Positions 1 through 17,737 of a DNA stretch of 36,999 nt are shown here, piece by piece. The number at the start of each line of letters is the position of its first letter. Position 1 is the first letter of the stretch. The notes below the pieces were generated by a model. That model was given only the letters and a program-made list of their open reading frames with translations, ran no database searches and was not told where the DNA came from. Source of the DNA: Oscillospiraceae bacterium (GTDB lineage Bacteria; Bacillota; Clostridia; Oscillospirales; Oscillospiraceae); assembly GCA_017416325.1 (NCBI GenBank), contig JAFQCV010000050.1, positions 1-36,999 on the forward strand. The letters are read 5' to 3'. Position numbers and translations under genes: made by a program.

Positions 1-147
1 ATCCTGGACGGACTGAAAAACCGCCCGATGGAATACGATGAGCAGATCGTAAGACAACTGCTCGAATGCATAACGGTAGATTCCAAAGAACAGATCACGG
101 TGATTTTTGTAGGCGGTCTCAAGGTGGTACAGCCACTGATCGACTGA
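1..147 (+). CDS. Serine site-specific recombinase, C-terminal end (partial)
   Basis: The window opens inside a reading frame that runs in frame 1 to a TGA at 145-147; 48 residues are visible. The segment RPMEYDEQIVRQLLECI followed by a short beta-rich tail (ITVIFVGGLKVVQ) matches the usual last 50 residues of large serine recombinases of Firmicutes mobile elements, where a long helix precedes a terminal strand pair. The catalytic serine domain, zinc ribbon and coiled coil would lie upstream, outside the window. Such enzymes excise and integrate mobile elements, so this may mark the edge of an integrated element whose other end is not visible. The identification rests on a short C-terminal piece, so it is moderately confident. 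Confidence 0.55.
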   Translation: MLDGLKNRPMEYDEQIVRQLLECITVDSKEQITVIFVGGLKVVQPLID

Positions 148-254
148 CGGTGGCTCACCACCACACACTAAATTAGAAAGCTCAAGATATTTTGTGAGAG
201 TTCGAAGTCATACGCAAAACGGCCGAAAATATCTTTTTTATAGTCCTTACACAT

Positions 255-289
255 AAAAATCCCGACCACATTCGTGGTTGGGATTTTTA
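255..289 (+). terminator. Rho-independent terminator hairpin
   Basis: A perfect stem AAAAATCCCgACCAC / GTGGTtGGGATTTTT with a short ATTC loop, followed by T-rich sequence. It lies 107 bases after the recombinase stop and directly before the tRNA-tail element at 299-425. The same order (terminator, then element) is seen at the tRNA-Arg and tRNA-Gly loci in this window. Confidence 0.6.
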
Positions 290-298
290 TTTTGCTGA

Positions 299-425
299 TG
301 TGAGGGATTCGAACCAATTTAAATGCGGCGCGGATGAGCGCCGCGCGCGACGGCTTGACGGAGCGCAACCTTAATCGGCATCCATTCCCGGATGCCGATG
401 CAAATCGAATCCCTCATCCTCTGCA
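299..425 (+). repeat. tRNA-3'-end-mimicking hairpin element, copy C
   Basis: A perfect 12-bp inverted repeat, TGAGGGATTCGA (301-312) and TCGAATCCCTCA (405-416), encloses stem-loops at 325-344 (GCGGCGC/GCGCCGC) and 374-399 (ATCGGCATCC/GGATGCCGAT), with a weaker one between at 345-366. After the last stem comes GCAAA and then TCGAATCCCTCATCCTCTG, which reads as T-loop, T-stem and acceptor 3' strand of a tRNA with discriminator G, so Ser-like. The order (terminator, IR arm, three hairpins, GCAAA, tRNA 3' end) matches the copies at 8935-9108 and 17484-17661, and ACCTTAAT before the last hairpin is shared with the tRNA-Arg copy. No tRNA gene lies upstream here; the recombinase end occupies that place. 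Confidence 0.6.
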
Positions 426-8934: not shown

Positions 8935-9108
8935 GTACGGCGGAAGGGACTCGTTTGCATTTTCTCCCACAACTGTGGGAGAAAATTAAGGTGGCCACCA
9001 GTGTTTGCACTGGTGGCAGCAATATGCCACCGGCATATTGCGATTTGTATTTTTCGAGTCCCTCGGCGACAAAAAATATGGGATAGGCAAAAGCCTATCC
9101 CATATTTT
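8935..9108 (-). repeat. tRNA-3'-end-mimicking hairpin element, copy A (tRNA-Arg)
   Basis: Read on the minus strand, downstream of tRNA-Arg: terminator (9109-9072), an arm GTCGCCGAGGGACTCG (9070-9055), stem 1 GCAATATGCC/GGCATATTGC (9041-9019), stem 2 GCCACCAGTG/CACTGGTGGC (9017-8994), stem 3 ATTTTCTCCCAC/GTGGGAGAAAAT (8986-8959), GCAAA, then CGAGTCCCTTCCGCCGTAC (8953-8935). That last block is 18/19 identical to the 3' end of the tRNA-Arg gene itself (9129-9111), 176 bp away in direct orientation. The first arm is a decayed inverted copy of the same sequence. Stems 1-3 correspond one to one with those of the tRNA-Gly copy. Confidence 0.75.
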
Positions 9109-9109
9109 T
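9072..9109 (-). terminator. Terminator of tRNA-Arg
   Basis: A perfect 17-bp stem AAAAATATGGGATAGGC / GCCTATCCCATATTTTT with a four-base loop begins right at the tRNA 3' end. Confidence 0.85.
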
Positions 9110-9185
9110 GGTACGCCGGAAGGGACTCGAACCCCCGACCTACTGATTCGTAGTCAGTCACTCTATCCAACTGAGCTACCGGCGC
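9109..9185 (-). tRNA. tRNA-Arg (anticodon ACG)
   Basis: The minus strand gives a full cloverleaf: acceptor GCGCCGG / CCGGCGT (one G-U pair), D-arm AGCTCAGTTGGATAGAGT, anticodon stem ACTGA / TCAGT around loop CTACGAA (anticodon ACG, read as ICG), T-arm GGGGG-TTCGAGT-CCCTT (one G-U pair), discriminator A and an encoded CCA. Confidence 0.97.
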
Positions 9186-17266: not shown

Positions 17267-17433
17267 GTGAAATATCCTTCGGATGTGAAATAATGACCTG
17301 CGGTCATTGTGAAATTTGATGCTTTCGCATCAAGTGAAATGAAATAAATCCACCCACGCCCGCAGGCATTTCACATTGCGAAGCAATATTTCACGCACGA
17401 AGTGCATTTCACAAATCCGCAAGGATTTATTTC
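17267..17433. repeat. Array of mini-hairpins separated by GTGAAAT / ATTTCAC
   Basis: GTGAAAT occurs at 17267, 17285, 17309 and 17334, and the inverted form ATTTCAC at 17368, 17388 and 17406. Each interval holds its own palindrome: ATCCttcGGAT, AATGACCtgcGGTCATT, TTGATGCtttcGCATCAA, then ATTGCgaaGCAAT, GCACgaaGTGC and AAATCCgcaaGGATTT. An outer inverted repeat GAAATAAATCC (17341-17351) / GGATTTATTTC (17423-17433) frames the right half. The spacers differ in sequence but all fold, with 3-4 base loops. It is not CRISPR: repeats are 7 bp and change orientation midway. Confidence 0.75.
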
Positions 17434-17436
17434 GTT

Positions 17437-17483
17437 GAAAAGAAAACACCTTTTGTCATGTAGACAAAAGGTGTTTTCTTTTC
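17437..17483. terminator. Terminator hairpin next to element B
   Basis: A perfect 21-bp stem (17437-17457 with 17463-17483), rich in A on one side and T on the other, loop ATGTA. On the minus strand it directly follows the second copy of the tRNA-Gly 3' end, where the tRNA's original terminator would be expected. Confidence 0.8.
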
Positions 17484-17661
17484 TGGAGCGGGTGACGAGG
17501 CTCGTTTGCATTTTCATTTCAGCGGAAATGAAAATAATAGTAGCCACCAGTGTTTGCACTGGTGGCAGCAACATGCCACCGGCATGTTGCATTTAAGATC
17601 TTCGAGCCTCTACCGCTATTTCCATAAAAAAAGAAGCCACCTTTTGGTGACTTCTTTTTTA
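17484..17661 (-). repeat. tRNA-3'-end-mimicking hairpin element, copy B (tRNA-Gly)
   Basis: Bases 17484-17504 are identical over 21 bp, including the CCA, to the 3' end of the tRNA-Gly gene (17662-17682), 178 bp apart in direct orientation. Read on the minus strand from the tRNA: terminator (17660-17627, one U-G pair), a decayed inverted copy of the tRNA end (17623-17603, with GAGGCTCG kept), stem 1 GCAACATGCC/GGCATGTTGC (17590-17568), stem 2 GCCACCAGTG/CACTGGTGGC (17566-17543), stem 3 ATTTTCATTTC/GAAATGAAAAT (17535-17510), GCAAA, then the tRNA 3' end copy. Stem 1 differs from copy A by a T-A to C-G pair swap, and stem 3 differs in sequence but still pairs fully. Confidence 0.8.
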
Positions 17662-17737
17662 TGGAGCGGGTGACGAGGCTCGAACTCGCTACCTCCACCT
17701 TGGCAAGGTGGCGCTCTACCAGATGAGCTACACCCGC
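17662..17737 (-). tRNA. tRNA-Gly (anticodon GCC)
   Basis: The minus strand gives a full cloverleaf: acceptor GCGGGTG / CACCCGC, D-arm AGCTCATCTGGTAGAGC, anticodon stem CCACC / GGTGG around loop TTGCCAA (anticodon GCC), T-arm with TTCGAGC, discriminator T, and an encoded CCA. Confidence 0.97.

Follow-up and report, generated by a model that had tools for sequence, protein, structure and literature searches.

The best-known routes by which bacteria gather genes at fixed sites are integrons and tRNA-borne islands. The attC sites of integrons carry the core words RYYYAAC ... GTTRRRY, tycheposons are integrative elements that target tRNA genes, some casposons insert at tRNA gene ends, with duplication of a repeat-like target known, and phages of the CTX type integrate at dif by Xer-mediated recombination via a folded single-stranded attP with inverted half sites. 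For attC, imperfect inverted ends have been described that pair in the folded single strand and enclose a variable structure (PMC2727003). The window analysed here, the whole stretch of 36,999 nucleotides of contig JAFQCV010000050.1 from an Oscillospiraceae bacterium, contains an element of about 120 nt that starts about 45 bp behind both tRNA-Arg(acg) and tRNA-Gly(gcc) and has the look of a so far undescribed route for inserting or swapping DNA at tRNA genes; a literature search of limited depth, with preprints and most subscription papers outside it, turned up no account of it.

On the minus strand, the Arg locus opens with tRNA-Arg(acg) (9185–9109; ARAGORN and Rfam tRNA model), the copied part of which comprises the last 21–22 nt from the T loop to CCA. 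The tRNA is followed by an inverted repeat (9072–9109) that its position in the tRNA/element interval, its hairpin and its T run mark as a probable terminator, and then by a head (9053–9067), which is the reverse complement of the tRNA-Arg T arm and had been overlooked in the sequence-only reading; its assignment is supported by the sequence and by the genome-wide head test described below. Three hairpins with compensatory changes succeed the head: hairpin 1 (9019–9041; alignment covariation and single-strand folding), hairpin 2 (8994–9017; sequence comparison and covariation) and hairpin 3 (8959–8986; inverted repeat and covariation). The word GCAAA comes just before the tail (8953–8935; repeat match and genome-wide tail test), so that head, hairpins and GCAAA all lie between terminator and tail. 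The direct repeat claimed from the letters alone is real: positions 8935–8953 match 9111–9129, the minus-strand 3′ end of tRNA-Arg(acg), in 18 of 19 bases at a distance of 176 bp. Equally sound were the claims of near-equal spacing and homologous cores at tRNA-Gly(gcc) (17662–17737, minus strand; ARAGORN), where an exact tail (17484–17504, 21/21; tail test and sequence) repeats the last 21 nt of the tRNA 178 bp away, hairpin 2 is identical to its Arg counterpart over 24 nt and hairpin 1 differs by one compensatory pair. As judged from the sequence, the Gly element likewise has a terminator hairpin in the tRNA/element interval (17626–17660) and a head (17601–17617), and its core (17510–17590), supported by sequence and covariation, comprises hairpins at 17568–17590, 17543–17566 and 17510–17535, all on the minus strand. 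Reading by eye places a second terminator behind the Gly tail on the same strand (17437–17483), as would follow from displacement of the native tRNA end downstream together with its terminator.

A third element, also overlooked before, lies on the plus strand at about 301–424 without an adjoining tRNA. It is of the tRNA-Gln(ctg) type: The tail (405–424) is the 3′ end of that tRNA, the head spans about 301–312, the covariance model matches 302–415, and the stretch folds. The DNA in front of it (window 1–300) is almost identical to that at a locus of a relative (L145, genome G011), where, as here, an ORF end closing at about 147 and then GTGAGAGTTCGAAGTC...TTTTTTATAGTCCTTACACA precede the element terminator; the element tail is of the Gln type in the window and of the Ser(gct) type in G011. 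This shared stretch, whose ORF end has no Pfam match, probably belongs to a mobile element that went in after CCA and ahead of the terminator, and forms its right end. A Gut-1 RNA (Rfam RF01706, 80.6 bits) occupies 17363–17437, directly beyond the Gly element and its second terminator; similar GTGAAAT repeats were seen by eye behind tRNA-Arg(tct).

Ten of the 13 elements of the source genome were aligned by structure, with the Ala, the second Leu and the near-duplicate Lys copy omitted. The alignment contains four covarying helices with 88.3% of cells paired and changes on both sides in 16 of 36 pairs. Four of five covariation measures were equalled in 0 of 500 shuffles, the fifth (further pair types) was reached by seven of 500, and slid structures scored far lower than the true helix register. 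Folded as single-stranded DNA, three elements, of which one was folded in both strands, gave z values of −8.7 to −9.5; three further elements gave −5.0, −11.9 and −5.1, and in one of these three the tail no longer pairs well with the head. Rfam returned no family above the gathering score at the Arg element, and Gut-1 adjoins the Gly element without overlapping it.

The fit of the ends to the local tRNA can be assessed without any element model. In the source genome, a 2.0-Mb draft that is 86% complete, 35 tRNAs were found, 26 of which are followed by at least 150 bp of tRNA-free DNA and are therefore testable. Their own-tail scores sum to 260 as against 161.5 ± 8.0 after permutation, their own-head scores to 240 as against 169.4 ± 7.6, and in neither case was the sum reached in 10000 permutations; the tail match thus exceeds chance, as the argument for a mechanism in place of coincidence had supposed. 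A strong own tail (score 15 or more) occurs at eight tRNAs, namely Ala, Leu(taa), Arg(acg), Gly(gcc), Pro(ggg), Pro(cgg), Ser(gct) and Ser(gga). A second core type was noticed by eye at Glu(ttc), Pro(cgg) and Leu(gag).

We then considered 99 elements found by cmsearch in 60 neighbourhoods of 13 relatives, chosen among the matches listed. A same-strand tRNA ends at most 70 bp upstream of 56 of them (median 47 bp; 25 anticodon types), and no convergent tRNA lies within 70 bp of any of the 99. Mean scores reach 17.25 for the tail and 13.21 for the head, compared with 6.32 and 7.54 after permutation (0/10000 each), and the own tRNA is the best or tied match for 43 of 56 heads and 51 of 56 tails. 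The sequence-only reading would have been refuted by a majority of tails unlike their neighbouring tRNA, and this last count in relatives goes against such a majority; in the source genome, 18 of the 26 testable tRNAs have no strong tail. The junction is fixed: In 46 of 49 clear tails the copy starts 21 or 22 nt from the tRNA 3′ end, corresponding to T-loop positions 56 or 55 in standard numbering, and by eye the aligned elements read GCAAA|(T)CGA at this point, not the attC core words. The outer limit varies, with 23 of the 49 clear tails extending to the end of CCA and nine of 53 heads being complementary as far as CCA. Among the 43 elements without a tRNA within 70 bp, 23 have an upstream tail copy, 18 have none and two lie at contig ends; three of those 23, in three genomes, show that tmRNA genes are used too. 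Elements also occur as tandem units of 139–202 bp, each composed of a tRNA end or tail, terminator, head and core.

While the ends follow the tRNA, the cores follow the genome more closely. Among 63 labelled elements, the mean distance between cores of one genome at different tRNAs is 0.395, that between cores of different genomes at one tRNA 0.476, and that between all others 0.507, values as low being obtained in 0 of 500 permutations of genome labels and in four of 500 of tRNA labels. Cores are hence more alike within one genome than at the same tRNA across genomes. They are mosaic as well as genome-specific: The nearest core belongs to the same genome for 27 elements, to the same tRNA for 13 and to neither for 23. 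Of the cross-amino-acid core pairs with at least 0.80 identity, 15 of 26 fall within one genome, compared with 85 of 1114 among all pairs, and in these core-sharing pairs identity drops 7–8 bases outside the junctions, mostly to 0.15–0.5. In one relative (G022), the His, Asp and Gly(ccc) cores are 87–95% identical and the flanks outside the T arm unrelated. Together with the tails at 25 anticodon types, such cores support the earlier claim of a shared core with a target-specific end, and the head is a second target-specific end. The same T loop with its own flanks at every site would make the core exchangeable between tRNA loci, head and tail staying local.

Turnover was followed at orthologous tRNAs. 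Thirty of 90 mutY-linked matches were retrieved, and 17 of these loci show tRNA-Arg(acg) with readable downstream DNA; by eye, eight are filled and nine empty. Four of the eight filled loci are without hairpin 3, one (L241) is without a tail, and one locus counted as empty (L263) keeps a tail-like remnant. The MutY tree requires five changes between presence and absence, at least three of them forced by well-supported branches, a number not lower than shuffled labels commonly need. Between the source genome and its closest relative by MutY (G086, 84%), the Arg locus aligns at 83.6% over 585 bp as far as the first base after CCA and is not alignable beyond. At tRNA-Lys of the same two genomes, identity is 0.96 over 200 positions in the tRNA region, 0.96 over 53 in terminator and head and 0.85 over 33 in the tail, whereas the cores belong to different subtypes (0.62; shuffled 0.48) and the flanks beyond the tail are at chance level (0.51). 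The Lys core of the source genome is 0.77–0.82 identical to its own Arg, Gly, Leu and Pro(ggg) cores. No other locus shows a core change between two T loops as clearly as this orthologous one, where terminator and head are conserved and the tail is related; the same result could come from gene conversion. Proximal and distal terminators differ at 30 of 34 loci, which fits displacement and is no proof of it; they are alike (above the 99th percentile of mismatched pairs) at four, two of which are tandem arrays, and duplicated terminators were discarded as a general sign on this count. At one G086 locus, tRNA end and terminator are apparently duplicated, as judged by eye.

The distribution was mapped with a covariance model of the element (R1). 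Since R1 includes nine head–tail pairs, it favours mutually pairing ends, but not a fit to the neighbouring tRNA. It matches in 29 of 37 genomes of the genus, source genome included, and in 0 of 23 genomes of other families; laxer filters recovered nothing in the eight element-free genomes (0/8). G086 has ten matches, nine with E below 1e-4. An order-wide search under stricter filters found matches in five of 394 genomes, all of one family and three genera, a count to be taken as a minimum. In a named genome collection, 48 stretches contain the pattern ATTTTC..GAAAATGCAAACGANTC; they are titled Oscillospiraceae, Clostridia or Clostridiales MAGs, and wherever the title names a host it is a herbivore. 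The Arg element has no match among phage and plasmid DNA records. The cultured isolate Vescimonas fastidiosa MM35 (NZ_AP023416.1) carries one such locus at tRNA-Gly(gcc), with a 21/21 tail starting from the same base, a core that by eye resembles the second core type, and an R1 match limited to a fragment (14.7 bits). In the 400 kb of this genome that were covered, one of nine testable tRNAs has a tail and permutation was not significant (883 of 10000 for the tail, 147 for the head), which counts against generality.

Some successive elements of the same tRNA type enclose genes read away from the tRNA. One interval (L165) contains a cytosine methylase, a second methylase-like ORF, a HaeIII endonuclease and a Shedu protein, another (L135) a ParE toxin together with an antitoxin that scores slightly below its cut-off; an AMP-binding enzyme (L154) and a methyltransferase (L114) each adjoin a weak second element, and unknown proteins are also among the genes between successive elements. 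Arrays of the form gene-then-site recur at several loci, many units contain no gene at all, and some gene-bearing copies sit kilobases from a tRNA. The ORFs of nine intervals between elements include no integrase gene. In the source genome, about 22 kb of ORFs, metabolic by eye, lie between two elements of the tRNA-Pro(ggg) type; in G086, the corresponding Pro(ggg) fragment and element were found by eye at most 150 bp from the tRNA.

Further mobile DNA was encountered at the same tRNA ends. A viral contig (L184) shows the order recombinase ORF, displaced tRNA 3′ fragment, terminator, element; this looks like the attachment end of a prophage adjoining an element, with the integrase beyond the displaced tRNA fragment. 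On three contigs of the source genome (C11, C37 and C61; loci L008/L017, L019 and L054), one sequence begins exactly behind the CCA of tRNA-Trp, tRNA-Gln(ctg) and tRNA-Leu(tag) and is 100% identical for 113, 69 and 484 bp, to the contig ends. It has no match among phage and plasmid records and marks the left end of a mobile element of which copies stand behind three tRNAs of different kinds. Moreover, some Pro, Leu and Arg tRNAs and some element tails are followed, 4 nt after their CCA, by a module of about 100 bp that consists of a terminator and a promoter-like part (L296, L297, L298, L299, L310, L315, L319, L034 and L213), with different genes behind each copy; related sequence is present in 19 of 136 genomes of the genus. 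We rejected this left module as proof of element mobility: In the stretch retrieved for 15 longer loci, the tRNA end recurs exactly downstream of only two of 16 modules, at L334 along with an element and at L321 as a second whole tRNA, so that the module cassettes need not belong to the element. In the cassettes at L034, L319 and L315, left and trailing modules contain the words TCGACAAACTTGAATTTG and TCGACAAATTCCAATTTG, which by eye are alike and may form a second recombination site. As other mobile DNA also ends exactly at CCA, CCA junctions are not to be credited to the element described here.

In the source genome, 86% complete and with nine tyrosine recombinases, the best score for an integron integrase was 127, with a cut-off of 265, and comparison of tyrosine recombinases between carriers and element-free genomes revealed no dedicated recombinase. 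Among 65 matches listed, with part of the loci retrieved, a XerC/D-like pair is the only set of tyrosine recombinases common to the seven carriers examined; it is also found in two of three element-free genomes (G006 and G021) and is absent from the third (G035). The latter, a genome of the same genus that is 98% complete, has a single tyrosine recombinase match. Three tandem tyrosine recombinase genes lie in the source genome at C22:15615–18914 (L176), 8 kb from a tRNA-Leu(taa) locus; this trio was dismissed as the enzyme, the middle protein occurring in only two of 61 genomes of the genus, source genome included.

The reading that we rank first, and to which we give close to an even chance, holds that the element is a folded, non-coding, attC-like DNA recombination site tied to tRNA and tmRNA genes, with crossing over in the T loop. 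The head would pair with the tail, and the three hairpins would draw both ends of the core together; the crossover point would be the T loop (position 55/56), which is common to all tRNAs. A unit entering there would bring a tRNA 3′ end, a terminator and the folded site, and the native tRNA 3′ end, pushed downstream by the entering unit, would become the tail. Genes could travel between two such sites, the tRNA acting as attI and the element as the attC of an integron. Single-stranded DNA would be the substrate, and an enzyme would act in trans. The evidence is one of anatomy and evolution, and the reaction is a candidate. It is favoured by ends that follow their own tRNA, the fixed junction, the same-strand position, the use of tmRNA, the fold and the tandem units, as well as by within-genome cores, the Lys core change, enclosed genes and patchy presence at one orthologous tRNA. 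Because a unit with the end of one tRNA would break another tRNA on entry, movement between tRNAs would need core exchange as an extra step. Against T-loop crossing over stand the missing dedicated recombinase, the 23 of 63 nearest cores from neither the same genome nor the same tRNA, the chance-level flank beyond the Lys tail and the one poorly pairing tail among three further folds.

Several of these observations can be accommodated differently. Ranked second, and in our estimate rather unlikely, is a fixed tRNA-flanking element with a structural role, the core of which is homogenised by ordinary gene conversion and the ends of which are matched by selection, with no dedicated recombinase involved: Genome-specific mosaic cores, a Lys core replaced with its flanks kept and the failure to find an enzyme all speak for it, but gain and loss at one orthologous tRNA, tandem arrays and gene-bearing intervals exceed what a fixed element would produce, and 80–95 bp of diverged sequence is little for homologous recombination. 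We place third, as a less probable option, a target-copying insertion in which an integrase (Cas1/casposase-like) or tRNA-primed reverse transcription duplicates a target of about 21–60 bp and fold-back copying makes the head. Since duplication of a target behind a tRNA end lets any tRNA yield its own tail, this would account at once for a tail that always fits, tmRNA included, and for core sharing between tRNAs; heads complementary to the tRNA 3′ end, to CCA in nine of 53, resemble primer-binding sites, and the seemingly duplicated G086 locus agrees with it as well, whereas likeness of proximal and distal terminators at only four of 34 loci, two of them tandem arrays, does not. The direct repeats might also be ordinary attachment-site scars left by phages or conjugative elements without any system of their own, tRNA 3′ ends being classical attachment sites; the prophage-like contig and the 22-kb island of the source genome both end at displaced tRNA fragments, and other mobile DNA ends exactly at CCA. 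Yet a covarying core of three hairpins, an inverted copy of the T arm and one fixed junction at 25 tRNA types are not what scars would have in common, and the core itself already makes this explanation unlikely; we accord it a very small probability. Slightly smaller still is the probability of a structured RNA transcribed by read-through of the tRNA terminator and acting on, or mimicking, tRNA: The secondary structure is conserved and the element, where a tRNA is near, is always downstream and on its strand, but a terminator separates the two, tandem units of 139–202 bp leave little room for a promoter, no Rfam family matches, and gene-bearing copies lie kilobases from a tRNA.

An element that uses many tRNA genes with ends fitted to each would be a further way of collecting genes and could explain gene turnover behind tRNA genes that have no linked integrase. 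It also makes one question testable: what fits the element ends to the local tRNA. The boldest reading, to which we give somewhat less than an even chance, is a new cassette system of a single family of gut Clostridia: Any tRNA or tmRNA gene would be a docking site, the local tRNA would supply the docking end on either flank of the folded core, and the T loop would be where tRNA genes exchange cores and genes.

Each known system resembles it in part. MITEs, REPINs and other short palindromic repeats are likewise short, non-coding and multi-copy with genome-specific subfamilies, but their ends are constant, whereas both ends of this element follow the locus; in relatives, they are not the constant, target-independent terminal inverted repeats typical of MITEs. 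Casposons and CRISPR adaptation offer a parallel in the insertion at tRNA gene ends and the duplication of a repeat-like target known for some casposons. Like phages, ICEs and tycheposons that target tRNA genes, the element is associated with a tRNA 3′ end that is restored and repeated at the far side; in contrast to these islands, its units are as short as 139 bp, contain no integrase, share one core over 25 anticodon types and include an inverted T-arm copy. In CTX-type phages, too, two inverted target copies flank a hairpin region, and host Xer enzymes are used in trans; the target there is dif, however, and the present element is without phage genes. With the integron attC site the element has in common imperfect inverted ends that pair once a single strand folds, a varying structure between these ends, and tandem copies of the same orientation, some with genes between them. 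It differs from attC in that no integron integrase exceeds the cut-off in the source genome, the crossover word would be the tRNA T loop in place of GTT, three conserved hairpins take the place of a variable terminal structure, and the partner site would be any tRNA or tmRNA gene.
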